Positions 5,162 to 60,896 of a stretch of DNA of 64,000 nt are shown here, piece after piece. Location of the stretch: assembly GCA_011109175.1 (NCBI GenBank), contig RDEW01000031.1, positions 655,542-719,541 on the forward strand, given 5' to 3'. Source of the DNA: Dicyema japonicum (lineage: Eukaryota; Dicyemida; Rhombozoa; Dicyemidae). Below the pieces are notes generated by a model. That model worked only from the letters and a program-made list of their open reading frames with translations. It was not told the DNA's origin and made no database searches. A program made the translations under genes and the position numbers. Position 1 is the stretch's first letter. Each line of letters opens with the position of its first letter.

Positions 5162-5937
5162 ATGATTTTTATGATTTTGTCAATTTTGTTCTTTAAGATT
5201 CTCAATGATTCAGAAAATATAACCGAAATTGCATTGTAAGTATAATTTCAGTAATTCAAGGGATAAATTCAATTCAATGGATAAAAATAAAAACGGTAAA
5301 GTTGGAAAAAATGAATTCGTATATTACACAAAAGAAATGGCTTTCAACCGAATCTTGGAAAAAAACAGAAAACTATTCACAGAGAACAACATCACAGGCA
5401 TGAACATTTCTCAATTGACGACTATTTTGAAAATTGAGATCCCTGAAAATATATTTGAGACTCATGACTTGAACAAAGATGGAGTTATCTCTCCGGAAGA
5501 ATTGGTTTCTATATTGGATCCAGAAATCGATATAAATTACCAAATAATAAACGCCATGGTAATAATGTGCGGTTAATGTCCTTTTAGAATTTTTTTATGG
5601 AGTTTTACGACAAAAATAATGACGGGATCCTCGATTTGGAGGAGTCAATTGGTTCTCGTTAAACTTAGTTTAGCGTGCAAACATTTGAATTTATATGCGT
5701 ATGACACGGATGGAGACAACGTGCTTACAACAGAAGAATTAAAGCCTTTTGTGATTCAAAAATATGTAGACAATCGTCAAATAGACAGAATATTCAACCA
5801 AATTGATTTGGATAAAGTTGGTGAATATATATTCATGTTAGAATAATTATATCTCCTTCGGTGAATACGTAGAAATGTTCAAAAAAGACCGAACATCAGA
5901 ATCCTATGAAAATTTAGAATTAGACGAAGAATTATAA
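5162..5937 (+). CDS. Secretory-pathway EF-hand protein (reticulocalbin/calumenin-like)
   Basis: Five exons join in phase: 5162-5235, 5261-5558, 5588-5651, 5674-5816 and 5842-5937, giving 224 residues. The introns are 25, 29, 22 and 25 nt. The protein starts with a hydrophobic leader (residues 1-15, MIFMILSILFF) and then has five EF-hand loops: DKNKNGKVGKNE, DLNKDGVISPEE, DKNNDGILDLEE, DTDGDNVLTTEE and DLDKNNYISFGE. The last has Asn in place of the usual Gly at loop position 6. It ends in DEEL, resembling a KDEL-type ER retrieval signal. A leader, many EF-hands and an ER-type tail are the CREC (reticulocalbin/calumenin) plan, although it is shorter than the usual 310-330 residues. Two junctions have in-frame alternatives of only 16 nt (ending at 5251 and starting at 5658). 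I prefer the longer ones because ARPC5 in this window favours 25 nt over 16. Role in ER calcium handling is inferred from the family. Confidence 0.85.
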
Positions 5938-6153
5938 TTCCAGTTTGTGATTATTTGGTTTTGATGATTCAATCCTCTTTATTTTTATCCATGAATTAAT
6001 ACCAATTTGAAGCCACAATCAATTCTTCGAAATAGTTAAAGACTTGAATTGAATCCGACTCAATTATTAACCTTTGAGCGAGATCAACGTTGGTAGGTTT
6101 TTAGTTTCCCAGGGTGAGTTTTTTCTCAAATACTAAGCTCAGACTCTCAAACA

Positions 6154-6611
6154 ATGTCCATCTTCCAAATATTGATATTGTTGTCCTGTGTGATCACCAC
6201 ATATTCATGTTCCATTCGTTTGCTTTCAATGGTTCTCTTGATCACTAGAGTAGGTTATATTCACTTTAGCATCATGAACTAACTCACTTATCCGCAGATT
6301 ATCTTAATGTTCTCTACTTATTAGTTTTGATGACAATCCCAATTGCTATTAATGATATTTTTAATCGTTTTATCAAACACAAAGACTTATTATTGAATGA
6401 CCAGATATTCACAATAAAAATCCATAATAAAAGTATGAAATTTTTAATAATAAACATTATGCTCAAACTGAGGAGAGAGGTGCAAAAATATAGAAGAACT
6501 AAGGCGTTTTATGTGGATCATTGTGTTCACAGAACTCACTCCTATTCAATACTGGAGACTGGAAAGCAAGAACGTGAAAAGCATATGATGGAGAACTTTT
6601 TATTGATTTAA
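6154..6611 (+). CDS. Small predicted membrane protein, two exons
   Basis: ATG at 6154 opens a hydrophobic exon (to 6249). A 20-nt GT…AG intron (6250-6269) then joins in phase to an open frame ending at 6611, giving 145 residues. Residues 1-30 and about 40-60 (VLYLLVLMTIPIAI) are hydrophobic and the C-terminal half is basic. I do not recognise a family. The phase-compatible intron of the local size class supports it, but no homology does, and further small introns downstream cannot be excluded. Confidence 0.42.
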
Positions 6612-6688
6612 TGGAGAAAACAGAAGAAACCTTTCTGATGAATTCATGGTGTAATTTTGCAACATGAACCATTTATGTGCATTTAAAC

Positions 6689-7860
6689 CAGGGTTGTTAA
6701 AAATCATGATTTTTATGAAAAAATCGAAAAAATCTGATTTTTTGATTTAAACAGGATTTTTTGATTTAAATCAGATTTTTTTGAATTAAATGATTTTTAT
6801 TCTGAAACAAAGTAAAATAAAAATAAAAAAAATGGAAATCGTATTTATTTAAAAGATTGTAAACAGATTTTTCAATTTCCAGCCTATTTTGTACAGTTGA
6901 ATGTAAGAATCCAAAAGTCGAAAAAAATTGTTCTATTCCACCTGTGGAAGCAAATGCTCCAAGAATTTTTTGCAGTGTGAAATTACTTCAGAAGGTGGTA
7001 AGAGTTCGACTCCCACCAAGCTATAGGTGATACTTTGCTCAATAAATTCGGAGTGAACATGTATAGTTTGAATGGATTAGCTTTTGCTCTGAAATTAATC
7101 AGAGTCGAAATAGCATATTCATAATGTTCAGCACAATACTCCAAGGCCAGGTCAATCTCAGCTGTTGAAAGAAATCTCCCACAACGTGTTAGGTCCATTG
7201 AATTCGCAAGTAGGTGGAATAGTGTTAATGCTTGATCTGCTCGAGTTTTCACTTTTTCTAAAATGTAGCTATACCCAGAGGTGTCCACAGTGTCAATTAG
7301 ATAGCTCTCTCCATCCGATGTTACAACTGACACACAAATAACAAGTTCATTATGAATGTTGCTCCACCCGTCCAACATCACAAACACTGTCCTGTCCTGG
7401 AATCTTTGACGAAAGTCTTCATGTATTTGGTCGTACACACGATCGAGCAATGGACAACCAATTTGATGACGAGAAGGTCAACGATACCCAGGAAGAAGTA
7501 TTTGGACGAATTTGACAAATTCCGGATGTTCTACAGCAGCAAAAGGAGTGTTACTGGAATATATGTATCTAGCGAGTTGCATATCAATTAAATTTTTCTT
7601 TGATGACGTCGTCGTAGTAACGAAATTGATTAAAGACTGGTCCCTCATCCTTGGGAGGAATTCGCTGATCAAATCACTTTCTGGTTTCGACGGATTTTCA
7701 GAGATATCAATATTAGTTCGACATAACAAATGATGCTGCCTCATCCGAGATACGAGACCTTGTATCTCCTTCCCGTAATTACGGCATCTGGCTCGACTCC
7801 CGGTCTTTCCAGGAATAATACGTTGGTAAAGTCCAAGGAGATTACTTGTTGATTCAATTT
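6689..7860 (-). mobile_element. hAT-superfamily DNA transposon relic
   Basis: Read on the minus strand, a BED-like finger remnant (RCRNYGKEIQG…SRMRQHHLLC, 7795-7725) is followed by a hAT/DUF659-type transposase: ARYIYSSNTPFAAVEHPEF, LLPGYR, LDRVYDQI, then FVMLDGWSN…N and LIDTVDTSGYS (7640-7250). One in-frame TGA (7480-7478) and a frameshift near 6985 break it. After the frameshift the dimerisation end is readable (FSTFGFLHS-VQNRLEIEKS, 6930-6850). The right boundary shows a typical hAT end CAGGGTTG at 6689-6696, next to AATCATGATTTTT-type subterminal repeats (6697-6800). The opposite terminus is not visible. Confidence 0.85.
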
Positions 7861-8621: not shown

Positions 8622-10443
8622 TTATAATTGTCCCAGACGTGCGGATAACTGCTTATTCTGATTATGAATAACCTTCATATCATTCATAATATTTTCAATC
8701 TTACTGGCAGTATTCTTTATCTCTAATTGGACAATCTATGCTCAGTCAAGTTACACCTTATCGTCAATGGTATTCAACGAATCCGTAACTTCTTTCCGTT
8801 TTTGAGTGATCTCTCTCGAACGTTCACACAACTACGCTCTCCCTAAACAAAACCTCGTGGATTTCCACTATCCGCTCGTTCGCCTGTGGAATTATTTTAT
8901 TCAGTCGCCGTGGATCCTTATCAAAGAGTTCAACCAACTCGTCAAAAGTCCTCTCCGTGGTTCCTTTGACCAAAAAGATATGATCCTCTTGTTCTTTACA
9001 AACGCCTGAGAGCTAAATATTATACGACAGCCACTATTGAATATTCTTGTCTTTGATCATTCAGACATTTTTGGGTGTAAAATATCTTGTCAATATACAC
9101 GTGCCTTATGGGAGTTGAGATTGATTGATTAAGCTACCGAATTAGTTTTTATATACCATAGATTGGTGCCTTGCTTGGGTTTCGTTTTTGGCCTTGGTTA
9201 ATCGTTCAATCTCTGTCTTAAGCTGCACCAAGGACTCGGTTTCTTCTTTCTAAGACTAGTGACAACCGGAAAACCAGTAGTTCGGAGGCTTTTATGGTAT
9301 CCTCTGTCAACACTTCCAAATGAAGGGACCACTCCATCTCCATGTTCTCCAATCGGATTCTTCTCTTCTTCACAACCGCCTGAAAATAGCCTCACGTAAT
9401 ACATTCCAGTTTTCCAGTTCCTTTGTGTCCAAATCTATAGTAGAGATAGCTTCTAATGTGCCAGTACACGTGGCATATTCTGTCTTAACCTTTTCAAGCT
9501 CATTAATGAAATCTTTTTTAGTCATTTCTAGCAGTTCTGTGGCTTTTTTAAGGTCAGTTAACTCTATGGATCTTATTTCAAGGATCTCCTCCAATTCCTC
9601 AAGAGATTCAAACTCTTCTTCCACAGGGAACTCTACTTTCTGGTTATTTTCTACTAATTCCGAAATTTCAGTAGCATAATTGTCTTCAGATGTCACAGAA
9701 ACAAAATTCGCTTTCCCAGTAATCATTTCAGCACGTGATAATGCTTCCTGATCTTCTTCAACATTTATATCAATTTGGGGTAGTTTTGAGTTGAGGACAT
9801 CATTGAAGATTGAGGTTTCCTCGAGTCTTGGTAGCCGACTCCTAGTAAAGTTGGCGAGTAGAGAACAGACAGCACCATCAAACCTTGAAGTACACAAAAT
9901 GGGTCTAAGTTCACTTAATCCTCCCAAAATGAATGAACAGGAATGTCCCTCACTAAAGGATTGAAAATCCTTTATTTTTTAACCAAGCAAAACCATAATG
10001 AGTTGTCTTGGAACGAAACTGAGGAGAGATTGTTCACGAAGAGCATCTTTGACTTGTCCCATAAAACAGGTGAGTCCTTAAAGTATATTTTTGGTACCTA
10101 CGAGTAGTGGGAACTGAGACGGGGGACTTAGTCCTCTGTATTTTCTGGAGAAGAAAAAGGAGGACGTTTCTTAGATGGAGAGTGTTGCCATAAAGGAATG
10201 TCTCGAATCCTAAATCCCCTCTAAAACCCAAATCCTATGATAAATCTTGGTATAAACCTTAATGGTATCAACCAGTCGACTAGCCTGTTGATATCGAATT
10301 TCTAAAGAGTGGCTAAGCTCGTCCTGAGGAGTACGTTGAATGAGGGAGATTATAAAGTTGGTAACTTTAAAGCCTTCCTCTACTGACAAGTCAGTGATTG
10401 TATTGTCAATTGGACTTGTATTAATGGAAGTATTACCAGCCAT
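8622..10443 (-). CDS. CCDC22: CCDC22 orthologue (Commander/CCC complex subunit)
   Basis: Ten exons on the minus strand join without a frame error: 10443-10258, 10234-10102, 10076-9994, 9969-9403, 9379-9275, 9249-9157, 9133-9035, 9012-8836, 8810-8757 and 8735-8622. They give 536 residues (human about 627). The nine introns are 21-25 nt. The N-terminal calponin-homology-like part has LGFRGDLGFETFLY followed by NVLLFLLQK, matching the LGYP-ELGYQ-FLY…LLLFL signature of CCDC22. The second half is heptad-rich coiled coil. It includes a segment with EWSLHLEVL and a C-terminal part with IENIMNDMK and SARLGQL that follow the family order. With CCDC93 and COMMD proteins, CCDC22 forms the CCC complex on endosomes, which recycles cargo with Retriever and the WASH complex. 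Most introns are phase 0; one (10101-10077) is phase 1. The start is the only ATG upstream of the conserved domain in frame. Confidence 0.87.
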
Positions 10444-10620
10444 ATTCTTGCAATGTGATATTTATTGAGTGGTCGACGTTTTGCATTAATTACAGAGAAA
10501 TTAAATTTTAAATACTAATTATTTATTTATTGTTTTTTTTTCAACTTAAATATTTAATACTATAAGAGTTTTAAAGACTTTTACTTTATTCTCATCTTAC
10601 AAAACATAAAACAAATTATA
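10444..10620. other. AT-rich intergenic
   Basis: This presumably holds the CCDC22 promoter on its left side. Nothing specific is recognised. Confidence 0.4.
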
Positions 10621-11260: not shown

Positions 11261-11276
11261 GTACCTACGATGTTCT

Positions 11277-11410: not shown

Positions 11411-11469
11411 GTATCTAGAATCAAGATTATCTGTAAATCAAGTGCTTTCTATTTCAAAAATGGACAAAC

Positions 11470-11770: not shown

Positions 11771-11775
11771 TTTCA

Positions 11776-12972: not shown

Positions 12973-12975
12973 TCG

Positions 12976-13176: not shown

Positions 13177-15038
13177 ATGGTTACCAAGGCGACTGATCCA
13201 ATATTAATTCAAGGATTTCCAGCTCGACCGTTAATTAGTCCATCCGGTACTCCATTGTGACTCATTCAGATGGGGCATGGCTTACTGTCTACAGATCTGA
13301 GTTGTTGGAGTTTCTTAAGCGACAAAAAGGTAAGAAACAGACTAAAATGGAATCCACATGCAAATCTCTCACTCAAAAATACGCCGTATGTTAAAACTTT
13401 ACTATAGCTCCTCCAATCTGGAGAATCCGACCCTTCATCGGTTCTTACCCTCAATGTGAGTTCGTCTTGTTTAACTTCCATCACTGAAGATTTTAGTCAA
13501 TTTATTCTCTTACATACAGTTGATGCCAGTAACAACAAACTTAAACTCGGTGGAACATGATATTTTTACTTGTAGAGGACTTTGTCTCATTTCCTTCCCT
13601 TATGGAACTTGACCTTTCATTAAATAACATAAATTCTGTAATTCATATTGAATCGGTCTTTAAAAATTTACAAGTATTAATCTTAATTATGCAAGAAATT
13701 AAATCTTTCCTACAATAATATTAAAGAAAAAAGTATTTTGGACATCCTAGCTTGTCTAGAACTCAGGGACCTAAATTTAGACGGGAATGAAAAAGCAAAC
13801 TGGGCTATGATATTCAAACCGAACATTGATTGTGAACGGTATGTTTACTTAAATTATAGAGGTGGTTTACCAAATTGGAGATTTTGTCACTAGAAAGTAA
13901 TAGAATAACCGATTGCAAAATATTTTACTGGTTAGCCTTTATAAAAAAGTAAAATTAACAATAATTATAGTTTAAAGAAATTGAATCTAAAAAATAACAA
14001 AATTCAGAAAATCCCAACAGTTGAAATAATAGAGAAAAAAATAAATGAATTTTTTACCCAAGAGTTTGACCAGAATGATTGCTTAAATGCTGATATTTTA
14101 GGTTGATTGACATTATTAGCTTAGAAATAAACGAAAACGGAAATTTTGTCCCTCTAAACAATTTAAAAATCATCGACATTTCATCGAACCAAGTCCTGTT
14201 TATAACTATGGTAGATTAAAGACGAAGAGAGTGTTCTATCAATGACCCTTCTTCCACAAATTGAGACAATTATTTTTATCGACAATCCTTTCGAACACCT
14301 CTCTAGTGAACATGGAGTAATTGCTGATAAGTTCTTTGAATTAAAAAACATAGAATTTATTCGGTATTTTTGTTTTTCATTCTTCAGTAGTAGCACAAAG
14401 ATAAACGTTCAAAAAAGACCACCTTTAAATACAAGAAAAGTACCTAAAGTACACGTTTGGTTATTTAGACTAACTATGACCGGGCCTTTGAAGTCTTTCG
14501 GTATCAAAAAAGAAACATCGTGGAGAAACAGATTGAAAAAGTCGAAAAAAAGTACAAAACAAAAATTTCCATCAATAAATCATTAAATAATCTTATAAAA
14601 AGTGAAATGAAAGAAAAAATAAGTGATTTAAAAATTGATGACGTCGTTGAAGGAACTTTCACTACACAGGTCAAATTAATTGTTTATATTAGATTGGGGA
14701 ACGTTTACTTGAGGAAGAGACTTATGACTATAAAAGTCATGTTAACAAAACTAAAAGAGAATTAATGCAAATCTTAAAAAATTCAAAATTTGATTCTCGA
14801 AACGGGATTGACCAAATGTACGAATATGCTTATTTTTGTTCTAAAAAGGTACTTTATTCGTATCAATTTCCAGAAAAAAAATTCAAAAGTTATCAAAGAA
14901 TCAACACAAATTTGTGAGAAAATTATCAATCCAATATACAAAGAACGTTTGAATAAATTACTAAATTCAAAAACTGCATTTTCTATGATGGCTAAGACTG
15001 CTTACTTAAAGGTTTTCGGCTTTAAATATATAGTTTAA
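13177..15038 (+). CDS. XRRA1: XRRA1-like leucine-rich-repeat protein
   Basis: Thirteen exons join in phase: 13177-13246, 13270-13385, 13408-13549, 13576-13673, 13696-13838, 13862-13948, 13971-14101, 14125-14192, 14215-14363, 14388-14448, 14469-14669, 14693-14848 and 14874-15038. They give 528 residues. All 12 introns are 20-26 nt. The N-terminus carries GFPARPL then DGAWLTVYRSE, as in X-ray radiation resistance-associated protein 1. LRRs follow: DASNNKL, then FPSLMELDLSLNNI, NLQKLNLSYNNI, LEILSLESNRI, LKKLNLKNNKI and LKIIDISSNQ. After them comes the family segment with DEESVL…LLPQIETI…DNPF. The C-terminal third is Lys-rich and diverged (human about 790 residues). The molecular role of XRRA1 is poorly defined. 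The tenth intron could alternatively begin nine bases earlier in the same frame. Confidence 0.86.
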
Positions 15039-15777: not shown

Positions 15778-16097
15778 NNNNNNNNNNNNNNNNNNNNNNN
15801 NNNNNNNNNNNNNNNNNNNNNNNNNNNNNNNNNNNNNNNNNNNNNNNNNNNNNNNNNNNNNNNNNNNNNNNNNNNNNNNNNNNNNNNNNNNNNNNNNNNN
15901 NNNNNNNNNNNNNNNNNNNNNNNNNNNNNNNNNNNNNNNNNNNNNNNNNNNNNNNNNNNNNNNNNNNNNNNNNNNNNNNNNNNNNNNNNNNNNNNNNNNN
16001 NNNNNNNNNNNNNNNNNNNNNNNNNNNNNNNNNNNNNNNNNNNNNNNNNNNNNNNNNNNNNNNNNNNNNNNNNNNNNNNNNNNNNNNNNNNNNNNNN
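15778..16097. other. Assembly gap (320 N)
   Basis: This is a run of undetermined bases between a family C fragment and a family A fragment. Reading frames spanning it are meaningless. Confidence 0.98.
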
Positions 16098-16361: not shown

Positions 16362-16364
16362 AGT

Positions 16365-16674: not shown

Positions 16675-18018
16675 ATGTGGGACGTTAATGTTTCTGAGCT
16701 TTTGAATCTTCCAATGGCTTTTAGTAAATTTGATGCTATATGGGATGAAGTTGGGCTTTCAAATGACTATCGCCGTGAAAGACAGAGCAAATTTTTTGAT
16801 AACATAAAAAACAGGATATTCATGGTACTTGAAGATGAGGAACTATCAAAAATATCACTGGATAAGGAAATTTGCAGCATGAAGGAAGAAGCCGATTTTC
16901 TCGCAAAGGAACTTGGGTTTGAATGCAAAGAGGTCGATCCAGCTCTAAACCTCATTAAAAAATGCGAGATAATAACAAAATATTATGAAAAAATGGTTTC
17001 CGAAAAAGAAAAACGAATGTCAGAGAAGAATAGACTTTATGATTTGAACAGAAAGTATTCTCTTTTGCTCGAGGAGGAAATGATTAAGTTTGACGAAAGC
17101 GTAGTTCCCTCGTTGGAGTCCTTGGAAAAGGCTCAGCAACTGGTTGATATTCAAGAGACTCAAATAAGATTGAACTCTGACAAATACAACATGTATTACT
17201 CTGAGATTACTGACATTCTTGGACGACTATCTGATGTTCCTGCTTCTGAGTTATTCTGTTCTCACACGGACGTACTTTCTGAAGACTTTCTACTGGAATG
17301 TAAACGCTATATTGAAGAATTAAAGAAGGAACTCAACAGGAGAGAAACTCTTATGCAGTCTTTGTTGTCAACTGGTGAGAGCCTTTCAAATAATTTGTCA
17401 CTTATTGGTGTGCATGTGGCCTTTCCGAGAGCTGTGGACCCTATATCTTTGGATTTGATTACAGAATGGACTAACAAGGTGTCAGAACTTAAGTTTACTC
17501 TCAATGAAAAAAAGAGCTCTCTATTGGAATGTCTTGATACTGAAATGAAATTGATGTATTTTGGGAATAAACAGGTCCCTGTTATGACTATGGACGACAG
17601 TGTCAGAGATATTATAGACAAACTCAGTCATGTGAGAAGAATGAAGGAAAGAATATCAGTTTTTACGAGTAATATTAACAAGTGGAAGGAGTGTATGTCA
17701 TCTATAATGACGATTGGAGCTAAATCGAGTGACCCTGACCGACTCAGAAACAGAGGGGGTTTTCTGTTGAAGGATGCTGCGGATTTACAGAGGTTTAACA
17801 ATGAGTGTGGAAAGCTGGAGGCAAAAATATTAGGATTTGTTGTTGATGATGAGGAACTGAGTGAATTGATTGAAGAACAAAAAGGGGCTTTCAAAGAACT
17901 TGTGACTGAAGAGAAGCAAAGAATGAGTGATAGTAAGGCATCTCGTAAGGATAGTGTGAAAAAGAGTAGAGGAGAACAGTCAAAATATACCCATTCTGTA
18001 TTTTTTGATGTTATTTAG
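16675..18018 (+). CDS. PRC1: PRC1/Ase1/MAP65 microtubule-bundling protein
   Basis: This is a single uninterrupted frame. The first in-frame ATG, at 16675, gives 447 residues (vertebrate PRC1 about 600). The N-terminus has FDAIWDEVGLSNDYRRER followed by long coiled coil containing CSMKEEADFLAKELGF, as in the dimerisation/rod part of MAP65 proteins. The diagnostic spectrin-like microtubule-binding segment is present as DPDRLRNRGGFLLKDAADL (residues about 350-370). A Ser/Lys-rich tail follows (RKDSVKKSRGE). PRC1 crosslinks antiparallel microtubules at the spindle midzone and scaffolds kinesin-4, Plk1 and centralspindlin. Unlike its multi-exon neighbours it has no introns, which could be natural or could mark a retrocopy. 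No A tail is visible after the stop. Confidence 0.88.
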   Translation: MWDVNVSELLNLPMAFSKFDAIWDEVGLSNDYRRERQSKFFDNIKNRIFMVLEDEELSKISLDKEICSMKEEADFLAKELGFECKEVDPALNLIKKCEIITKYYEKMVSEKEKRMSEKNRLYDLNRKYSLLLEEEMIKFDESVVPSLESLEKAQQLVDIQETQIRLNSDKYNMYYSEITDILGRLSDVPASELFCSHTDVLSEDFLLECKRYIEELKKELNRRETLMQSLLSTGESLSNNLSLIGVHVAFPRAVDPISLDLITEWTNKVSELKFTLNEKKSSLLECLDTEMKLMYFGNKQVPVMTMDDSVRDIIDKLSHVRRMKERISVFTSNINKWKECMSSIMTIGAKSSDPDRLRNRGGFLLKDAADLQRFNNECGKLEAKILGFVVDDEELSELIEEQKGAFKELVTEEKQRMSDSKASRKDSVKKSRGEQSKYTHSVFFDVI

Positions 18019-19185: not shown

Positions 19186-19189
19186 TTAT

Positions 19190-22270: not shown

Positions 22271-23248
22271 TTAATAATATCCGATTTTGAGATTTGTAAA
22301 CTTTGATTTAATTTTGGCAAAAAATAATTTGGTATCATTTCTGAATGGAGGGGAACTTTGGAGTAATAAAAAAAATGTCAATGAGAAATAAGAGATGCCA
22401 ATTATTCCATCAAATAATAATTTGACGATTAAAACTTTCAAAAATTCTTCCGAATCATTAAAAACAAAGTTAACCAAAACATAAAGAATGGAACATGGAA
22501 TATAGGTTGTCAAGTAGAAAATTGTAATAGTGAGGTTTATTTTGGTGGAAACTGGAAGTGTGTACATTCTTCCCGAGAGTTTCTTATATTCTCGTTCACT
22601 CCGTTTAATAAAGAATGTGGTGATTGCATTCAAAATGAGAATAATCAATGGCAATATCAAAGAGAGGATTGTTATCGTTAAAGAATATATTCTGTAATAT
22701 GTCAATGTGGATGGTTTTATGGTGCATAGACTGGTTGAAGTCTCATAAATCCAAAAATAAAAATTTGGCAAAATAAGTATAATATTAAATAAGAGAATCA
22801 ATAAACATGACAAAAGTGTCCGAGAATACGAAATGTATTGAACCATTAATGGGATTCCAACAGTGAACAATTCCAATATGCTCCCCATCAGTAAATAAAA
22901 TGGATGAGTTGTCTGGGAGGCATTAAAAATGCTGACAAACAAACCACAACCAAAACTGGAGCTGAAAATCTAAATTAAAACAATAAATACATTCAGGTTG
23001 TTATTTATGACCAAAGTGTGAATCATAAGAGTGACCAATGTGACGATATCACACGCAGAAAGGAAAAAGATAACAATCATCGACTTTGACTTTCTCTGTT
23101 TTGAATTTGCTAGAATCACCAACAACAAAATATTGGTAGGAATTCCAATTGTGAACCAAATGAATTTAAAAACTAGGGCTGTCTTTACACTGTAAAAAGA
23201 AAAATCGTTTAATATGTCATTCATCCCTGAGTTTGATTTGTTGTGCAT
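22271..23248 (-). CDS. Class A (rhodopsin-type) G-protein-coupled receptor
   Basis: Exon 1 (23248-22991) and exon 2 (22969-22271) are separated by a 21-nt intron (22990-22970, GTATTTATTG…TTTAG) in phase 0. They give 318 residues. Seven hydrophobic segments are visible: TM1 with GIPTNILLLVIL (Asn1.50), TM2 with SACDIV (Asp2.50), a Cys before TM3 (FGCGLF), and TM7 ending SYFSLTFF, which departs from NPxxY. Where DRY should follow TM3 the protein reads SILELF…IPL, so the Asp-Arg-Tyr switch is lost. Short loops and an Asn/Ser-rich N-terminus suggest a peptide-type receptor, but the ligand cannot be told. Confidence 0.84.
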
Positions 23249-24270: not shown

Positions 24271-24272
24271 TT

Positions 24273-28461: not shown

Positions 28462-29335
28462 ATGCAATCTGTCGACGTGTCTGATCTTATGACTAAAATT
28501 CAAGCTTTGAAAACAGAGCGAGATTACTTCAAAGAAACAGTAAGAAACATGACTGAGGAGGTTCTCTCGAAACAGAATGAAATTAGCTTGGTCAACCAAT
28601 CTAGTAACCAATAGAGGGAACTTGAACTGAATATCGTCAGATCTCGCATTGAAAATTTAAAAGAGAGTAACGAAACCACCGAAAATTTACTTAAAAACAA
28701 TATTACAACCTACAAAGAGATGTACCTACAGTATGAGACAAGCGAGAGGTTCCAAGTGCTTTATTTTCCAGGGAACGTCGCTCTCTTGATGAAAAAAACG
28801 AAAAATTGGAGGCCGAGAACTCTAGAATGACTTCAGAACTGAAGAGACTGAAGTATCTCAATGAGGAGTTAGACAACGGCCTTGAAATTGTACTCGTGTT
28901 TCTTCAAGTAAGGGCCGAAGGAATAAGGAAATATTTGAGAGCAATACTAACCGCCTTGAAGGGATCGTGGAAACCAGGAAGAGGTTGAGAAGATCTATTA
29001 ACCTTAAGGGATTTACAGAAGATTTCTTCTGAACTCGACGACCTTTGCCGGGATCTCAATTCATCGAACCTTACCTTTGAAATTGTTTTTTGGTAGCTGA
29101 TGTAGGTTTCTGATAGCGTGGAGAGTATGATAGAGCATGTGTGTAGACTCAGAACTGAGGTTGGAGAGGTTGACTGGCTTAATTTGAAGTACGAGGAGAT
29201 GAATGGGAAAATGAAGGATGAGATTGCTGTTATGAAAGGTGTTTGTGTGTAACAAGTGTAGTGGAGGTTATAGATGAGAACATGTCTGTGGGGAGAATAC
29301 AGGATATGTTGTCTAATAATGTGAGGACTATTTAA
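28462..29335 (+). CDS. Coiled-coil protein, family unknown
   Basis: Seven exons fit together with no frame conflict: 28462-28590, 28615-28748, 28772-28889, 28913-28983, 29009-29084, 29106-29238 and 29262-29335. They give 244 residues. The introns are 24, 23, 23, 25, 21 and 23 nt and use phases 0, 1 and 2. Nearly the whole protein is heptad-rich and charged (KTERDYFKETVRNM, LDEKNEKLEAENSRM, LQKISSELDDLCRDL, EVDWLNLKYEEMNGKM). There is no signal peptide or membrane segment. The length and rod-like character would suit a centrosomal, kinetochore or cytoskeletal subunit, but no family signature is visible. The consistent splicing makes it a strong gene call with unknown function. Confidence 0.8.
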
Positions 29336-30264
29336 GTGATTTGTTTTTTTAATTAATATTATAACTATATTAGTACTAATGTTTTAACTACGTGGTTATT
29401 CTTACGGTGATCAGAATTCGCACAAAAACCTATTGGCCGGAGAACCGATGGAACCTACATCCAACACCAAAAAATAGTGATTTCAGAGACGCCCCTTTTC
29501 TCTAGAAACCATTTTTCTTTTACTATGCTCTTTCCTTGCAGCCTATTCTAATAATCTTTAAGAGAATGGGCTCCACCAAACGCATGTATAGAAGATGTAT
29601 AGTTCGATGCACTCTCTGTAGACAGAATTCCTGACTGGATGTTTTCCCCACTCTATAGGGGGCAAGTTATTAAGATATGCTCACTTTTTTCTCGATGTTG
29701 TTTCATCATAGATAAGATCTATACTAGCGATCATAATGTTATATTGACTTGGAGCGCACGTGATTTAATTGATGGCAGCGCCTGTCAAGTTTATCTTTGA
29801 TCATAATTGAAAAGAAATTCCTGACAAGTGAGGTGAAATCAGCTGTGGTACTGACTTTTGTTGACAGTAAAGGAACGATTGGACATGAAAGTAAGTTACT
29901 TTTTTGTTTATTGTTTAATAAAATAGTGATACATCTTACTTGATGTTTTATTTATTCACTCTTATGTATGACAACTTTATTTTAGTCACGATTTTTAAGT
30001 TAATTATAAGTATGCTTACCATCCGCCCTGGATTAGCCGACAGTCTCTAATTTGTAACCTTGTCCCAAATTTTGTCGCGGATTTAAGAGTTCCAGAATGT
30101 CCCGGATTATCATAGTTATTATTATTCAGTAGTGTGGGAATGGAAAACTAATAATTACGAATTAAATTGAATGCATGTTTGTAAATAATCTAATGAGAAG
30201 AGTGTTCAAATTCCTATTTTTATATTTTTTTAACAATAAAATATTATTTATTAACTATGGGGAA
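29336..30264. other. Intergenic, nothing recognised
   Basis: Mixed AT-rich sequence without a reading frame, repeat or RNA gene that I can support. Confidence 0.4.
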
Positions 30265-35018: not shown

Positions 35019-35136
35019 AGAAAAATACGGCACAAGCGGAACCTTAAATAAATTACATTTTTGGTTTTTCGAAAGTGCTATTAATATTTTTTTATTAAAT
35101 TTATTATTTTATTATAAGGAAAAAGAATAGTTAATT

Positions 35137-36795
35137 TTAATTATTCAGCTGTTGGGAGATGCATAAGCTATTCCCACGGACAACAGCCAACGAGAGCCTC
35201 TCCTTGAGCCATCTCGTCTCACGAAGATCACCAGTTTTGTCGGATAGTAGTTTTCCAAGATGATTCAGGAACTTCAGCGTTTTAGGGCCAAAGTTCCCCG
35301 AAGTTTCAATCGCGACAGGTGCGAAAATGTACCTGTCGCTGATATCCGAATACTTAGCATTTTTCATTTCCTCTGCTTGAGAAGAAGGTCTGCCCGGTGA
35401 ATTATTTTTTTTGCTTGGGGCGAAAGAGCAGACACAGGTCACATCCCATACAAGGTTTCGCCCTCGCTCGAAAGGAAAGGAGGTCATGCCGTCAGGGCGT
35501 CTTCCGTTGTCAAATAGACCAGTCGGTTCGATCCGGCAACGGAATCCAGCCGATTCTAATGCCCTCTTAATGATGCCGTTCATTGCCGAATGTCGAGAAG
35601 ATCTGCCAATTCCGCTCCGGCATGAGAGGAGGTGGAGACCCAGTTCGTCCGATAGACAGCCACATTTGCACTTCGATTTGGTGCAAACAGGCAATCCGAG
35701 GTATAGACACACAGCTGTACGAAGGGAGTCATCATCCAACAATCCACCAACTTCTTGACATGGGTAAACCCCAAGCCAAAATCCATCAACCGCATCACTC
35801 GAATTTTGGAAACAGTCCAGGCGATGTCCAGAGAGCCGGCTGACTAGGTTGGATGCCAGAGCATTCCATCTATGGATCATCCAAGACGATTGTTGGTCTG
35901 GATTACGCGGCTCTCTAAGCCCTTCGCTCCGCCACACGTCCATGTATTCAACCAAGTCATTGGACAGTTTCCGAGTCCAGGCGATGTCCAGAGAGCCGGC
36001 TGACTAGGTTGGATGCCAGAGCATTCCATCTATGGATCATCCAAGACGATTGTTGGTCTGGATTACGCGGCTCTCTAAGCCCTTCGCTCCGCCACACGTC
36101 CATGTATTCAACCAAGTCATTGGACAGTTTCCGAGATGGACCTTTGAAAGAATTGAGTCCACTTGGTTTTTGCATGAAAGTTTTGAGGCAAAATACGCCG
36201 GGCCAGCAATTTGGCAGGGAGTAGTAAGACCGATTCCACCCAATGATATCGGTAATTGAGTCTGTATCCATCCAGGGGTGTCAAGGGAAACGTTAAGTAC
36301 GAATTCAGTACATCTTTTGAGGCAATCAGAGTATTCCATTAAAAGGGAATCACACTTATAACATGGTGCAGTCCTTAGTAAATAGTTTAATCTTGGAATG
36401 GACAAGCAGTTTCTCAATAGGAAGAGGGCAATATGGTTGTCAACATGCCGCAAAAGGGTCTCAAAAGTACCGAGCTCTATTGTCCTTTCTTTAAACACGT
36501 CCACAATTCGGTCTTCGAATATAGGAGAACCAAGGAACAGAGACTCCCCAACTGGAACCGATGCATAATTTTCGAGAGTGTATTTAAACTGGTCATTGTA
36601 GAAAGTAGTCAGATCGGGACTCAAATTGATCTTGATTAATTCACATTTGGCCTTGTTGACAGAAAGGGCAATCGCTTCGAATTCAGATATCAAACGACGC
36701 ACGTCCTCCAAAACTGTATCTGGATGTCCACCAATGATTCCGTCATTAATAATAATAGTCTTAAAATGCTTTTTTGAAATTTTAGTCTCATCCAC
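35137..36795 (-). mobile_element. Family C LINE, RT thumb to nuclease, longest copy
   Basis: 36795-36037 encodes the RT palm edge (IINDGIIGG where related copies have YLDD-type, then LSVNKAKCELI) and thumb (TQLPISLGGIGLTTP). 35955-35137 encodes VCTKSKCKCGCLSDELGLHLLSC (CxCxC…H…C knuckle), SSRHSAMNGIIKRALESAG, RRPDGMTSFPFERGRNLVWDVTC and APVAIETSGNFG. The RPDG…WDxT pattern resembles a PD-(D/E)xK restriction-like nuclease. A 160-bp direct duplication splits the two parts. The Asn in the palm motif suggests a dead RT. Confidence 0.85.
35815..36134. repeat. 160-bp perfect tandem duplication inside family C
   Basis: GTCCAGGCGATGTCC… at 35815-35974 recurs at 35975-36134. The break at the junction shifts the coding frame of the element. 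Confidence 0.92.
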
Positions 36796-39280: not shown

Positions 39281-39862
39281 TCAGCTTTCCTTTTTAAGTC
39301 TGTCATGTTGAGCCAAAACATCAACAGGAATGAGTGCCCTCAAAGAGGCAATCTCCAAATAACCAAACAGACAACCTCTTCCAACAGGGCGGTCTTCTCA
39401 ACATTTTCCTCATGGGTCTTCATGATCACGCTAATCTCAGCAGTCACATCCCTTATGAGGTGTTCTTTCACCATATCCATGGCCCTCTCAATCCTTCGAC
39501 TGATTGATTCTTTCGGGGTAGAGCCATGGATGAGTCCATTTGATTGAAAGTTCTCCCCAATCCGATCATTGATCTTGGCTTCTTGGTTGGAAACCACAGG
39601 ATTCTACTTTGGTTAGATTTATGGATAAATTAATAAGGAAATTGTATACTGTTGCAGATTTATCAACTGTTTTTGTGGGTTCGAAGTAATCCACACATTT
39701 CCATCGTCCGTATGAGTGAGTTTTTAGGGTAATCACGGTAAATCGATTTGGAAGACCTTCGGTAGCTTTTGGATTTGTGTTCGAATGTTGGACGTCGATT
39801 ATTTTGTAGCATGTTGACTTTTTCCTAATATCGGGGGAATCCGACTTGGTACTGTGCTCCAT
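39281..39862 (-). CDS. TSC22D: TSC22 domain family leucine-zipper protein
   Basis: Exons 39862-39608, 39573-39376 and 39352-39281 give 174 residues. The N-terminal part has NRFTVITLKTHSYGRWKCVDYF, the short conserved RF-VV-L…GRW-C-D motif upstream of the TSC box. The TSC box is RRIERAMDMVKEHLIRDVTAEI (residues about 105-126). It is followed by a leucine zipper (EKTALLEE, IASLRALIPVDVLAQ). The second intron is 23 nt (39375-39353). The first is 34 nt (39607-39574) or, alternatively, 46 nt (39649-39604); both keep frame. TSC22D proteins dimerise through the box and zipper and act in growth, stress and osmotic signalling. The family is restricted to animals, which helps to place the organism. Confidence 0.87.
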
Positions 39863-39895: not shown

Positions 39896-40536
39896 CGTGA
39901 GATAGTAATTTAAATTTTTTAACTATTCATGGTTTTCTTAAATTAAATAATTATGATTTAATTATATTTTATTTAAATAAAAATTATTAATTATATGTTG
40001 AAAAGCAGAAATTTGTAAGATTTTTTAGTCTTATAAACATTTATTTTGAGTTATCATAAAATGATTAACTTTTTTTTCTTTGCTCAAACTTGTTAACATG
40101 TGTAGAAATGATGGAATATGAACGGATGACCATCTTTCCGTTTTAAATTGGAAAGTCTCCAGTCCGTACGTTACCTGGACGAATTCTTTCAACGCAAAGC
40201 TAAACAAGCCTGTTGGGCCACTTTGATATCGAAATGTTGAAAAGAAAAGAGTATGCTGACCTACCTTACTAAATGATGTTTATTCTTTTTGAAGTGAGAC
40301 TTCTGATGCCATTGGACCCTCAAAGTTGGTATTTCTAGGTCGACTTGAGAATCGGATTTCTCGAATCCTGCGATCTCCGTGAGTACTGTCAGCTATTCGG
40401 ACGAGTTTGACTTTCAACTTAAGATAAAATAGACAGTCTTCTTTCAGGACTACTAATTGGATTACCAAATTCAAAAGTCAATAAAAAATAAAATGTCACA
40501 AGTCAGCAATATTATTCTCCAATCTTATAAATAAAA
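39896..40536. other. Intergenic with one undecided open frame
   Basis: A minus frame at 40280-40474 (VKLVRIADSTHGDRRIREI) lacks an ATG and has GT…AG pairs that would change it. I could not decide between coding and non-coding. The rest is AT-rich. Confidence 0.3.
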
Positions 40537-41189
40537 TCATGTGAACCTCACAATCTGTCGAAAGTTAGCATTCTGCTTCTCATTGGCCACAGAACACAAA
40601 TGCGACAAATACTAAATAGTTAATACAATAAAGACATTCTCGTTTATAAGTAATAGGCCATCGTTAGAAATGGGAACTTCAAGCTTTGAGGTTCCACGAA
40701 TTGCCTGAATAAAGACAATCTCCTACCAAAGTTATCTTTCTAAGTTTCCTCCCGAAAGTAATCCCAGAGTTTTTGAATCCAGAAGTCAATGCCCTTTGAA
40801 TCTTCAATAAATTGTTAATCTACTAGTTTATTAGCTGCTTCCAATGTACGGCAGGCCACGTGTAAAATAGCTGGTTCAAAACGTAAGATAATCCTCCCTT
40901 CGCCGAGATTGTCTCTTAAAATTGATTCAAGAGAATTGGAGTCACACAAGTCATGAGTCACATGCAACCAATGACAGGATCTTTTGTTGTTAATCTCATT
41001 CTTGAAAAATTATGTAAAACGTACTGATATTGAAAGAGAAATTCTTCCAGAACACGAACTGGTAGTATAGTAGTCTTCGAGTTGGTTGATTTTGTTTATT
41101 ATGTTGAGTATTCGTTCATCAAATGACTTTTTAATACTCAAATCAGGAGAATTTAAACAAATATTTTTAAATTTATCAAATTGTTCCAT
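40537..41189 (-). CDS. TYW3: tRNA wybutosine-synthesizing protein 3
   Basis: Five exons, all in phase 0: 41189-41025, 41000-40824, 40801-40727, 40704-40636 and 40611-40537. They give 186 residues; the introns are 24, 22, 22 and 24 nt. The start Met is followed by EQFDKFKNICL…DLSIKKSFDE, then the invariant YYTTSSCSGRI (residues about 42-52). Next come WLHVTHDLCD, ILRFEPAILHVACR, SGFKNSGIT and TSKLEVPIS, all in family order. TYW3 is the N4-methyltransferase step in wybutosine formation at position 37 of tRNA-Phe in the cytoplasm. The C-terminal low-complexity tail of vertebrate TYW3 (about 260 residues) is absent, so the domain is essentially complete but trimmed. Confidence 0.94.
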
Positions 41190-43129: not shown

Positions 43130-45745
43130 CAAGAAATTTGAGACGGTAATGAGACATCTCCTTGATTGGAAAACGACCGGGGTCGATAAAGTTTATAATT
43201 TCTTTATCAAAAGATGCACTTCATTGCACGAGTCTATGTGTCGTGTATTATAGAAAAGCATCACTAACCCGGAAACGATTCCTGATTGGGCATGCAAAGG
43301 GACAACTTATCTGATCCCAAAGCTGGACAACCCCCAGTCTGCTGCAGATTATCGACCGATAACCTGCATGCCAACCCTGAATAAACTGATGACCAAATTG
43401 GTGGCTAATGAGGTCATGAGCTTTGTAGAAGCAAATGGGATTCTTTCCGAGAATCAGTTGAGTACTGTGCGAAATTGTCAGGGGGCAAAAGAGCAGGCTT
43501 TGATCAACAAATGCCTTTCTGTGTCTCACGGAAACTCACTTTTGTCTATGTGGGTGGATGTGAAGAAGGCTTACGATTCAGTTGATCATTCTTACCTTGT
43601 CGAGTGCCTACACACTCTGTGTATGCCTGTGTGGTTCATCAGCTTTGTAGTAGCTGTGATGAATAGGTGGAGTATTCATCTGAACTATAATAGGCACCTG
43701 ATAGGCGAGGTAAAACTCAAGAGGGGGATCCTTCAGGGGGATAGCATGTCTCCGCTGCTCTTTGTTCTCTGTTTGGAGCCATTGAGTCGCCCCCTCAATG
43801 ACCGGTTTGAGCAAATACCAGTTCATTGTGAGGGGGTTTGCTTCAGTACAAATCACCTTCTTTTTATCGATGACCTGAAGATGTATGCTCGAACAGTCGA
43901 GGAGCTCTACTCCATGGGGGTCTGTGCCAGGGAATTCTTTGAGAGTATAGGACTAGATTTGAATTATTCAAAGTCTGCGACTAACATGCAAGTATGTAGC
44001 GAGTTAATAAGAGTCCTAAGGAACACGAAGGATATAAGTATCTGGGTGTTACCGAATCTCCAAAGTCCTTTATAATGCCTGAGACAAAGCGACAAATTAC
44101 TGAAGGAATCCGTAAAAGAGCAGCGTTATTGTGTAAGACGTCTCTAAATGCAAGGAATTTATTCCTAGAATTAAATGAGTATGCTGTCTCGCTGCTAAAC
44201 TACTACATAGGTGTTGTGGAGTTTGAGCCCAAAGAGTATGATGAGATTGATGTTATGANNNNNNNNNNNNNNNNNNNNNNATCCGTAAAAGAGCAGCGTT
44301 ATTGTGTAAGACGTCTCTAAATGCAAGGAATTTGTTCCTAGCATTAAATGAGTATGCTATCTCCCTGCTAAACTACTACATAGGTGTTGTGGAGTTTGAC
44401 CCCAAAGAGTGTAATGAGATTGATGTTATGATCCGTGGAGTACTCAGAGGAAATCATGGCCGTGTGCTGGCAGCCAATAAGGAGAGACTATATTTACCCT
44501 GTGATAAATTCGGCCGTAAACTGTGTGGAGTAGTCCAACTAAGTGAGCGTATCCTAATGCGAATGCACGACACCCTAATAGCTGGTCAAGTGTGTCTGCT
44601 AGAAAGCACGCCATAATAACGACCGAGAAAACACGAGCAACCCACCTAGGCACTATCAGACCTTTTTTTGTCTGCTAAGTATGGTGTTGATGATGGTGGG
44701 CTAGTAAATGTGAAGACGTTGATCGAATTACAAAATAATAATTTGATTAAAAAGCCTTCATAAGGTCCTCTTCAGAGCATTGGACAACCCACATGTTGAC
44801 CTTAAGTCGTCGACAATATGGCTAAAATACGGTGACAACTCACCTCGATCTGAGGCGTTGTACACGTATATGCAAGACCGCAATATTTTTTGGGGTCGAT
44901 CAACAAATACATGTCCCCACTGTAAATCAAGGAGCATGTCGGTTGATCATTTAGCCACTCGATGTGGATCCATGCTCTGCCACGACTATGTGTGGACTTC
45001 TACTATGCAATAAGTATGGTATTCGCCACACCAGAAGATTGCGGACTCATAAGGTGCAATCTGTAGTAGAGAACACCAGGGTACAAATTAAGGTAGACAG
45101 TGTTATCCGTACCTCGGTGCTAGTCAAGCACAATAAACCGGACATTGTGGTACACGATAAGGAATCTGGCCAAGTCCTTATCGCGCATCCAAATGGTTAT
45201 GTGGCATGCACAATGAAGAATGCGGTGTTGCACAAGAACAGTTTGTTTGCCGTGCAGAAATGGCCAAGTATGGTCCCAGGGAAGTTTCTTTTCCCACGTC
45301 CGTTTCTTCCCATGAAGGTATCTTCTGAGTTCATTTTTGTTCCAATTTTCGCATTTAGATCGCATCACGTTTCAAGACCGTTTGCAGACTGTGGAGGTAA
45401 AGAAAAAAGAAATTATGACTTTCTTGCAAACGAGATGGGGCAGATGCTTGGTTGCAAGGTCCTCGTTATTCCTATAGTAATGACGTGGGAAGGAATTGCA
45501 ACAAAGTACCACAAGGGTTATCTGAAGCAGTTGGGGGGTAGATAGGAAGCTCCAGGCCTATTTACAGTCCACTGTGTTAAAGCGGACCCTAGAGAGCCTG
45601 ACACTGGAGTATAGGAGGCAGAGCCCTGAGATGCCATATGGGCAGAGTGTTCAATTGGAGAAGGCGCTCTCGGAGTTGTTTCAGCAACCAGAATCGAACC
45701 TGCCTGAAGAGGCTGGCGAACAGGCAGGCGAGGAAGGTTGTTGAT
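43130..45745 (+). mobile_element. Family B R2-like LINE with restriction-like endonuclease
   Basis: RT runs from about 43260: KGTTYLIPK, ADYRPITCMPTLNKL, DVKKAYDSVDHSYL, KRGILQGDSMSPLLFVL and FIDDLKMYARTVEEL (catalytic F-DD). After a frame break, ITEGIRKRAALLCKT continues and is duplicated across a 22-N gap (44259-44280). The C-terminus has CPHCKSRSMSVDHLATRC…HDY (CCHC knuckle) and KPDIVVHDKESG…ITFQDRL…VEV (restriction-like endonuclease PD…EV), then NYDFLANEMGQML and VMTWEGIATKYHKGY. A 174-bp RTE insertion interrupts the nuclease. This architecture defines the R2/R4/CRE-type LINEs. Confidence 0.87.
45180..45363 (-). mobile_element. 174-bp RTE fragment inserted in family B, with target-site duplication
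   Basis: 45185-45358 is nearly identical to 45949-46122 and belongs to the RTE APE domain on the minus strand. It is flanked by ATCGC at 45180-45184 and 45359-45363. It lies exactly where the nuclease should read …LIxEVGIT…, so the insertion is younger than the host LINE. Confidence 0.78.
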
Positions 45746-57326: not shown

Positions 57327-58108
57327 TTTTTTTTTTTTAAAACAAAAATTTATTAACAATAAAATATTATTTATTAACTATGGGGGAGAGCGGCTGCTGA
57401 CATCACGGAGTAAGCGTTTCCGCGAATAACAGCGATACCAATTCTTTGCCTCAGCCAGACCGCTTCCCGCACGTCTTTCTTGCGGTGGGCCAATTTTCCC
57501 CCGATTTCCTTTAGGAAAGAGGCTGTAATACTTCCAGCCGCACCAGACGTCTCGATTGCTATCGGTACAAAACGGTAGCGGTCTCCAATTTCGCCATATT
57601 TTTTAATCTTGATTTTTTCGGCCATATCGGCTGCCGATCCAGCAGACTGCGCCGAGCTGAGCATCATCGAGTTCGAGAAAGAATCCACAACAGTGCAGTC
57701 CCATACGAGCGATTTTCCCTCAGTGAACGGAAAGACAGTTAACCCATCCGGTCTTTTCCCATCTCCGCGGTCCAATCCCACAGGTTCCAATACTGCCGGG
57801 AAGCCTGCCGCTTCAAGAGCTCGCAAGACAATGTTGTTCATAGCAGCATGGCGGGGTGCTCTGCCCGCACTCCTTTTGCACGAGAGCGGGTGCAGCCCTT
57901 TGGCATCGACGATCCCTCCACAGCGACATTGGTGTTCGACGCAAACATCAGCTCCCAGGCGTTGTGCGATTCCAATCCGAATACAGTCATCGTCCAATAG
58001 GGTCCCCAGGGAGGAAGACGGGAGTGCATCCAGCCACGCTCCGCTCCCATGGTTGGCGGCGGACACGAGGCATGCAAGACGATGCTGGTTGGCCTCAGAT
58101 ATTATCAT
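57327..58108 (-). mobile_element. Family C LINE 3' part with poly-A tail
   Basis: A 244-codon frame (58108-57374) has LGADVCVEHQCRCGGIVDAKGLHPLSC, KRPDGLTVFPFTEGKSLVWDCTVVDSF, YRFVPIAIETSGAAG and WLRQRIGIAVIRGNAYSV, the most intact nuclease end in the window. The 3' terminus (AATAAATAATATTTTATTGTTAA) is followed by an A-run of about 15. It is 5'-truncated near 58108. Confidence 0.87.
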
Positions 58109-58110
58109 AT

Positions 58111-59169: not shown

Positions 59170-59760
59170 ATTTCCGTTATGTAGATAATTGCGTATTTGC
59201 TTAGGTATTTTAGGTGAAATGAAGATACTTTGTCTGGGTCGCAGGCCCGTAAGTTTTTTTAATCCGGCGATAACCTGAGACCTGCTTATCTGAGAATAGT
59301 TCTTGGTAAGGTTCATTTTTCGGTTTTCGGGCACGTACTTTGATATCCAGTTGTTTAGAGAATTTCTTGAAGCTGATCGCAGCGTAATGTTTCATAAGTA
59401 GATTAGGGCGTATATGACAAATATTTTAGGAGAGGAGTTACAGGTTCCATTCGCATCTTCCAACTCTGATTTACTTTGTTTTAATGTTTTCCAAAAATGA
59501 TGAGATGAACTTTACCCGTCAAGGCGATTGATTAGAACAGCATGAGAATCAGCGTCCACGAGAAGCATTCGAATACTTGTACTAATAATTTTTTTCCAAT
59601 TTGTATTAAAAATTGTCCAATTAATAGGGAGAATAGGATTTTTCTTAGAAAATATTTAAAAATGCGCCAATAAGCGAGGATGACTATATAACAAATCCAG
59701 ATGAGTCTGATAGTGATCTTGACCGTTCTTGACACTAAATGGAGTCCAATAATAAAGGTA
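59170..59760 (-). pseudogene. Decayed reading frame, probably of a mobile element
   Basis: One minus frame stays protein-like over about 500 nt, broken only by single stops: RMLLVDADSHAVLINRLDG, stop, SSSHHFWKTLKQSKSELEDANGT, stop, then NNWISKYVPENRKMNLTKNYS and IAGLKKLTGLRPRQSIFISPKIP. In-frame stops without usable splice sites suggest a dead ORF. Family not recognised. Confidence 0.4.
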
Positions 59761-60166
59761 ATAATGGTTGGACCTAAGAAGAGAATATTGAGTTATAAAA
59801 TAATTACTTTTACTTATTTTTTTGATATATAAAATGACTGGTATTAATTAGATATTACTGATAATACAAAAGCTTCTTTAAGATTATCTATTATCCAAAA
59901 GATTTTTGATATCTGTTTTATTATAGGATTTGTAGTATTTAAGTTGAAAATACACAAAACCTATTGACTCATCAAAACATTATTCTTCCCTTACTGGATT
60001 GTGATTAGTTGACTGATTTTTGTCAAAAATTTTGTTTAATTTTTCTGAAGTAGTTTACAAAAACTGTTAATTCCCATTCCACTTTAAAATGGTCATTTTG
60101 CATTTTAGAATATATTAACAATCATTAAAAATTCATTAATAAATATTCATATTACCTTTGTTCAAT

Positions 60167-60390
60167 ATTTAGATAAATGTCCTCAATCGAGGAAAAGCTA
60201 TAAGACCTTGGGGTTGTGATAGACTGGAATGTCCATCATCCCTGGGTATTAGCTGATGAACCTATAGTCAATTATTNTATTTAGATAAATGTCTCAATCG
60301 AGGAAAAGCTATAAGACCTTGGGGTTGTGATAGACTGGAATGTCCATCATCCCTGGGTATTAGCTGATGAACCTATAGTCAATTATTGGT
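60167..60390. repeat. Direct duplication across a single N
   Basis: TATTTAGATAAATGTC(C)TCAATCGAGG… up to CAATTATT is present on both sides of N 60277. This is a probable contig-join artefact. Confidence 0.8.
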
Positions 60391-60454
60391 GATGTTTAAT
60401 TTACTAGAATTAAATAATAGGAATAATTAATAAATTAGTATAATCCGTAAATCA

Positions 60455-60896
60455 TCAAACTATTTTTCTGTCGCAAAGAACTCTGCAGATGCACCCAACA
60501 CCAGATTTTGACATTATCTAACAAATTACTCACAAATTCAACAGATTCGTGCCACTGCAGTATTTTATTGGCATTTCCTTCATATAGAAATTCCATGGAC
60601 TTGTAAACGTACTTTAGTAGGTTGATAATCTTGTCATCGTCCAGATTGTCCACAAACTGTCCTACATTCCCTCGGTATAGCACAAAACACTTAGAAAGCA
60701 TCGTTGCGATGTTGTTCTAATTAACACACAAGAATACTTTCAAAGAAATATCGGATCCAGTATTTGGTCGAGAAATAGCTTCCTTAATGGCTGATTCGTA
60801 GTCTCCTCTAAAAGTAATCTAAAGAACTAACTTGTCTATTAAAGGCTTTAGTTCCTGTGGAGTTACAAAATTGTTATCTATGGTCGATTTTACCAT
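60455..60896 (-). CDS. ARPC5: Arp2/3 complex subunit 5 (p16-ARC)
   Basis: Exons 60896-60832, 60807-60738, 60716-60543 and 60517-60455 give 123 residues (human 151). The introns are 24, 21 and 25 nt in phases 2, 0 and 0. Conserved blocks: KGDYESAIKEAISRP, NNIATMLSKCF, NLDDDKIINLLKYVYKSME, NKILQWHES and GVGCICRVLCDRKIV at the very C-terminus. The last intron could be 16 nt (GTGAG…) or 25 nt (GTTGAA…). Only 25 nt restores the six residues between WHE and GVG found in the family. The acidic N-terminal extension of vertebrate ARPC5 is missing. The protein stabilises the Arp2/3 complex, which nucleates branched actin. Confidence 0.94.

Follow-up and report, generated by a model that had tools for sequence, protein, structure and literature searches.

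Dicyemids are tiny parasites of octopuses. The window considered here, the whole stretch of 64,000 nucleotides that was analysed (contig RDEW01000031.1), contains genes divided by GT...AG introns of about 23 nucleotides (nt) that resemble the introns of these animals. Tiny dicyemid introns are already known, and the accounts available of them were published between 2007 and 2019 (PMC2222250, PMC2483917, PMC6543705, PMC6736024). The 16 Dicyema introns described from genomic and cDNA clones measured 26.2 ± 1.9 nt (Aruga 2007, PMC2222250). Later work on Dicyema gave a median of 27 nt and put about two thirds of the predicted introns below 30 nt (Zverkov 2019, PMC6543705, which cites Ogino 2010 for 40 genes), and the genome-wide mean for D. 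japonicum is reported as 38.2 nt in a 67.5-Mb genome (Lu 2019, PMC6736024). In a survey by Irimia and Roy (2008, PMC2483917) that included 41 Dicyema introns, the 5′ boundary score was weakest in Dicyema, at 0.5 bit, and its introns lacked a branch-point signature. Introns of 15-16 nt are described for Stentor coeruleus, and in about 91% of them the branch adenosine occupies position 10; the tip of its ISY1 that reaches the active site is reported to be strikingly non-conserved, and a change in branching factors that avoids a steric clash has been conjectured (PMC9505925).

The introns described below agree with the available Dicyema literature in being very short, narrow in range and frequent. 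The present sample is slightly shorter (mean 23.4 nt for 61 introns, all of conserved genes); the 38.2-nt mean of Lu 2019 is genome-wide. Relative to the 2008 survey it consists of 61 introns from eight genes, accompanied by the genome's own small nuclear RNAs (snRNAs) with canonical recognition elements. As far as the Stentor account goes (PMC9505925), the two systems share tiny AU-rich introns, a full set of snRNAs, a conserved PRP8 and no strong branch consensus; they differ in that intron length is variable here, no fixed branch adenosine is seen and the N-terminus of ISY1 is conserved. Paramecium and the Bigelowiella natans nucleomorph (18-21 nt) fall in the same length class, which they reached independently, and are not animals (PMC2222250).

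The original prediction held that ten genes of the window carry about 45 introns of 20-34 nt, with a mean near 23.6. The ten regions, each accompanied by 40 dinucleotide shuffles, were run through a parsimony splicer restricted to GT...AG intervals of 19-35 nt. In nine of them the region scored higher than all 40 of its own shuffles; the region read as SIGMAR1 was matched by one of its 40, and its best path contained no introns. The best models of the nine passing regions hold 40 introns, or 41 at a lower intron cost, and 40 of these 41 measure 19-30 nt with one of 32 nt. When lengths of 12-100 nt were permitted, 41 introns were again obtained with a maximum of 32 nt, and 16 of the 41 drifted to 12-17 nt, an effect of the reward that the method gives to codons. 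Owing to this sliding of the borders the splicer cannot fix exact intron lengths, and it was rejected as a source of them. The 16 window introns with homology support have a range of 21-29 nt and a mean of 24.0 nt. The observation of tiny introns itself is confirmed, since the nine regions surpass their shuffles and protein alignments give similar sizes; judged from sequence, the GT...AG intervals of the window are real introns. As for the gene names, PITP, TYW3, ARPC5, CCDC22 and the EF-hand gene were upheld, but XRRA1, TSC22D and the G-protein-coupled receptor are weak and SIGMAR1 has no match. The nine regions that beat all 40 shuffles, and the SIGMAR1 region, are as follows (E, expect value).

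5162..5937, plus strand: EF-hand protein gene (EF-hand matches on the spliced protein, E 1.3e-23); introns placed by hand at 5236-5260 (25 nt), 5559-5587 (29), 5652-5673 (22) and 5817-5841 (25), the last interrupting an EF loop.
8622..10443, minus strand: CCDC22-like gene (Pfam CCDC22_N, E 3.1e-14; human CCDC22 8f2u, E 1e-4, residues 44-132); N-terminal introns placed by hand with domain support at 10235-10257 (23 nt), 10077-10101 (25) and 9970-9993 (24), the third just beyond the stretch matched to human CCDC22; about six further introns in the coiled-coil part, not placed by homology.
13177..15038, plus strand: leucine-rich-repeat gene, earlier named XRRA1 (LRR_4, E 1.4e-10; the Pfam search of the product gives leucine-rich-repeat models alone); the parsimony splicer models 11 short introns, with borders not placed by homology.
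22438..23248, minus strand: putative seven-transmembrane (7TM) receptor gene (7TM_GPCR_Srsx, E 0.0057, below the cut-off); about two short introns.
28462..29335, plus strand: coiled-coil gene with 5-6 introns, in one model (21-25 nt) at 28591-28614, 28749-28771, 28890-28912, 28984-29008, 29085-29105 and 29239-29261; the antisense strand scores fairly high as well (120 against 174 for sense).
39281..39862, minus strand: possible TSC22-domain gene (TSC22, E 0.002, below the cut-off); intron at 39353-39372 (20 nt) and an uncertain second one upstream (46 or 19 nt depending on the model).
40496..41189, minus strand: TYW3 gene (Pfam TYW3, E 3.8e-48), its end at 40496 or 40537 depending on the model; introns from spliced alignment to PDB 2drv at 41001-41024 (24 nt), 40802-40823 (22), 40705-40726 (22) and 40612-40635 (24).
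46531..47369, minus strand: PITP gene (Pfam IP_trans, E 2.6e-82); introns from spliced alignment to PDB 2a1l at 47266-47291 (26 nt), 47107-47132 (26) and 46668-46689 (22).
50680..51345, plus strand: region read as SIGMAR1, for which neither a gene nor introns could be confirmed (draft protein with zero Pfam matches and no relevant PDB match).
60435..60896, minus strand: ARPC5 (p16-Arc) gene (Pfam P16-Arc, E 7.2e-12; human ARPC5, E 2.3e-6); introns placed by hand within the matched stretch at 60808-60831 (24 nt) and 60717-60737 (21).

An alignment-free control compared in-frame GT...AG pairs with six decoy dinucleotide pairs in 274 kb, mostly not host genes. The largest excess fell in the 20-23 nt bin (551 against a decoy mean of 463 and maximum of 516), which was the sole bin above all decoys, and the second largest in the 24-27 nt bin (411 against a mean of 360 and maximum of 412); some of the remaining bins exceeded the decoy mean by at most about 26. 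Several gene-finding approaches were dropped: self-trained finders on long open reading frames (ORFs), which learned transposon codons; forced single-gene models, whose borders shifted between runs; and a model trained on PRP8, which found little beyond PRP8. Protein-to-genome alignment replaced the self-trained finders for intron placement. A later trained gene finder, with no length prior between 13 and 150 nt, placed 44 of its 56 introns at 19-30 nt and called none in the reversed sequence; 35 of the 56 come from PRP8, and the splice-site weights were learned from introns already placed.

Exact lengths were taken from spliced protein alignments in which introns of 12-400 nt carried equal cost, with no length preference and with GT...AG ends only. 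The resulting set comprises 62 introns from eight genes, namely window genes and PRP8, U2AF2 and SF1 of the same genome; 53 were placed by alignment and nine by hand (ARPC5, CCDC22 and EF-hand). All but one measure 20-29 nt (mean 23.36 nt, standard deviation 1.46), so that most introns are below 30 nt with GT...AG ends, and the remaining one is a 68-nt intron of U2AF2, counted among the 62 and excluded from the mean. PRP8 (locus L069) aligns over nearly its full length to brachiopod and bee PRP8 with 81% identity and contains 36 introns, of which 35 are 20-26 nt in the alignment. The other was aligned as 38 nt but entered as 24 nt on account of a one-base slip in the exon that follows. A proposed intron of 184 nt, seen in one of two PRP8 alignments, was discarded, as it lies outside the conserved region. 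Besides its 68-nt intron, U2AF2 has six of 22-23 nt, one of them, of 23 nt, uncertain where it adjoins a probable one-base slip. The three SF1 introns used are 23-25 nt; nine of the 12 proposed there were left out as outside homology or ambiguous (40, 54 and over 100 nt, the others 23-25). ISY1, which is not among the 62, has introns of 25, 23 and 23 nt. The apparent one-base frame slips lie in otherwise conserved exons of PRP8 (L069, reverse strand, about 4931) and U2AF2 (L065, about 2304-2330). They are likely to be assembly errors, and they falsify the intron lengths of automatic models.

Within the 61 short introns the sequence signal is shown to be reduced to GT followed by A or T at the start and T or A before AG at the end, with little else. 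Position +3 is A in 30, T in 28, C in 3 and G in none, and the base preceding AG is T in 44, A in 13, C in 4 and G in none. G is found at position +5 in only 9 of 61, and relative entropy, with intron composition as the background, amounts to 0.15 bit at +3 and at most 0.05 bit from +4 to +9. Pairing potential to U1 averages 4.9 of 9 Watson-Crick pairs. A search of the 61 introns for a branch-site motif gave none, the best pairing to U2 showing a weak tendency at most (equalled or exceeded by 32 of 500 shuffles); near-perfect branch motifs occur in two introns, 8-9 nt from the 3′ end. A recognisable 5′ splice site and branch consensus, as expected for U2-type introns, was accordingly not found in this set. 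Intron GC is 5% in PRP8 and 21-34% in the other genes, lower than the flanks in every gene. Lengths divisible by three are found for 16 of the 61, and 15 of these 16 contain an in-frame stop, taken as a raw count.

The genome carries all five snRNAs of the major spliceosome, with 11 matches for U1, 25 for U2, one for U4, 15 for U5 and 10 for U6. Of the 11 U1 loci, 10 retain the recognition element ACUUACCUGG; conserved likewise are the U2 element GUGUAGUAUCUGUU in all 12 loci read, the U5 loop GCCUUUUAC in all 10 loci read and the U6 ACAGAGA in 9 of 10. The best matches of U2, U4, U5 and U6 lie above the Rfam gathering score; all 11 U1 matches lie under it (best 69.0 against 69.5). As the U1, U2 and U6 elements are conserved, the loss of consensus in the introns does not derive from compensating changes in those elements. 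PRP8 is about 80% identical to that of other animals, and SF1 aligns over its conserved domains (SF1-HH and the following KH-like stretch). U2AF2 aligns over its conserved domains as well and is standard in its RNA-binding stretches and in the segment that binds U2AF1 in other animals; it has a conserved YWDVxPPGFEH segment. The N-terminus of ISY1 reads ARNAEKAR.TILARWR against human ARNAEKAM.TALARFR, with ARNAEKA identical. The tested machinery is therefore ordinary. Upstream of most U1, U2, U5 and U6 copies (flanks of L009-L051) a TTAAAGC-like element is seen by eye, with no null, at about 70-80 nt and is a candidate promoter element of the snRNA genes; a scripted search for a common upstream motif gave a weak one.

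Two snRNAs of the minor spliceosome are also observed with their recognition elements, each as a single match.

C68:163471-163599 (L064): U12 snRNA gene, 85.4 bits against a cut-off of 53; a single mismatch to the family consensus in the first 28 nt.
C34:237761-237858 (L070): U6atac snRNA gene, 37.0 bits against a cut-off of 33; AAAGGAGAG intact.

The TATA-like CTCTATATATA, about 30 nt upstream, is common to U6atac and most U6 genes (by eye, no null). The presence of the two genes suggests that the minor spliceosome is probably retained in this genome, so minor introns are to be expected and may be record-short. A U12-type intron pattern gave 26 loose matches in 274 kb, against 19-32 in ten shuffles, and none of the three inspected was convincing. 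In the available part of a pan-eukaryotic survey of minor introns, introns below 30 bp were excluded, the shortest average was just under 42 bp (Blastocystis) and Intoshia was the sole mesozoan named. In the literature searched, which leaves most subscription journals outside it, no account of dicyemid minor introns or orthonectid U12-type introns was found; the 2008 survey (PMC2483917) alone turned up for dicyemid snRNA, and that survey and a fish paper for the mesozoan spliceosome.

The tiny introns might be an artefact of frame restoration, in that abundant GT and AG sites allow any AT-rich region to be opened. The splicer does overfit: shuffle scores climb as high as 255, the best shuffle of the SIGMAR1 region does as well as the region itself, and borders slide. 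Such an origin is nevertheless highly improbable given the nine regions that outscore every shuffle, the same intron sizes from independent protein alignments, the alignments of five window genes with homologues, which already contradict it, and the gene finder that called no intron in reversed sequence. The idea that the genome belongs to a short-intron protist is more improbable still. Introns of about 25 nt do occur in Paramecium and Nyctotherus (PMC2222250 among the sources, as available), but the top named relatives of PRP8 are animals at about 80%, those of U2AF2 are molluscs and one bryozoan, and the PRP8 alignment follows the standard code with no in-frame stop. By similarity rank rather than by tree, all named U2AF2 relatives among the matches listed, to the 41st, are mollusc or bryozoan, and the first four of SF1 are three tapeworms and the orthonectid Intoshia, which points to a lophotrochozoan. 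The presence of Intoshia linei among the nearest SF1 relatives would suit a lophotrochozoan outside the dicyemids, such as a relative of orthonectids, that reached the same regime. This too is improbable, as the orthonectid intron median is given as 57 nt (PMC6543705, in the part available), and the assembly of 64.67 Mb in 191 contigs, the GC content and the introns of about 23-27 nt are in line with Dicyema. For D. japonicum the figures given are 67.5 Mb (about 65 Mb estimated) and a GC of 36.7% (PMC6736024, in part); GC in the window is 37.4%. The dicyemid origin named in the original prediction is thus consistent with genome size, GC, intron length and the U2AF2 and SF1 relatives, though not proven; a dicyemid is the best fit to intron length and affinity, and the genome is likely to be that of one.

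The original prediction had further supposed an unusual small nuclear ribonucleoprotein geometry, with a spliceosome whose structure has been remodelled to suit introns of 21 nt. In its favour, there is a real geometric squeeze, U1 taken as a whole is divergent, and in Stentor the ISY1 N-terminus and the CWC25 plug are reported to have diverged (PMC9505925, as available). Against this, the snRNA recognition elements, PRP8, SF1, U2AF2 and the ISY1 N-terminus are all conserved; the unusual geometry is not supported, and the remodelling is considered unlikely. The favoured reading, held with fair assurance, is that these are ordinary U2-type introns which have contracted to about 20-29 nt in the genome of a dicyemid-like lophotrochozoan with an ordinary spliceosome. 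Several points weigh against it. U1 as a whole is divergent, no branch point was located in the 61 introns, and removal of the introns is deduced from frame and homology. Adaptation in U1 proteins, U2AF1, SF3B, CWC25 or YJU2 could be missed by a comparison that covered PRP8, SF1, U2AF2 and the ISY1 N-terminus. Finally, the 68-nt intron of U2AF2 shows that longer introns, too, are within reach of this spliceosome.

If an ordinary spliceosome is at work, the mechanism can be outlined, though beyond intron length, intron sequence and gene content its steps are what we infer. An unmodified animal spliceosome would remove introns of about 23 nt. The branch adenosine would be placed some 8-13 nt before the intron's 3′ end, and the lariat loop between the 5′ splice site and this adenosine would be about 10-15 nt. 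Textbook side-by-side occupancy of U1, SF1 and U2AF takes about 25 nt, more than a 23-nt intron offers, so their contacts would overlap or be sequential. Exon definition perhaps helps recognition, and what marks the intron would be not long base-pairing but its AT-rich composition, its narrow range of lengths and the exons on either side.

Other features of the window were also recorded. An intronless gene at 16675-18018 encodes 447 residues of the MAP65/ASE1 (PRC1) family (E 5.2e-15) among intron-rich neighbours. Decayed reverse-transcriptase-like ORFs, of LINE type by eye, lie at 1132-2864, 32331-36746, 43236-45744, 54875-57007 and 61519-63200; such ORFs mislead gene finders trained on long ORFs. 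A repeated segment is present in two similar copies (30241-30943 and 57361-58110, the second containing 403 of the 688 15-mers found in the first), with minus-strand open frames of 169 and 245 codons, respectively. Single N positions at 11042, 37595 and 60277 are each followed by a repeat of the preceding stretch (100%, 75% and 82% identical, respectively, over 60 nt ungapped) and look like unresolved assembly joins; a further single N lies at 55781, and runs of N at 15778-16097 (320 bases) and 44259-44280 (22 bases) lie in repeat-rich sequence. Elsewhere in the genome, NAD-kinase-like coding sequence (family by eye) was noted at L065 3887-4250 and on the reverse strand of L069 at 9081-9399; the first 60 residues are identical across contigs C114 and C87, and the pair is either a duplicate gene or an uncollapsed haplotype.

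What is added to the known dicyemid introns is the side of the machinery: ordinary snRNAs and core factors, together with pieces of the minor spliceosome. The link of tiny introns with a divergent ISY1 tip, as far as it is described for Stentor, does not extend to the present animal. A more tentative proposal, which we regard as possible rather than probable, is that both spliceosomes keep unaltered RNA recognition cores and that U12-type introns too have been squeezed into the class of 20-35 nt. If true, these would be the shortest minor introns known and would fall in the range (below 30 bp) that the pan-eukaryotic survey excluded by design. Introns of about 23 nt would then demand of neither spliceosome a remodelling at the RNA level, nor would they require strong signals of their own. 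Where introns measure 23 nt, a retained minor spliceosome raises the question of how short a U12-type intron can be.

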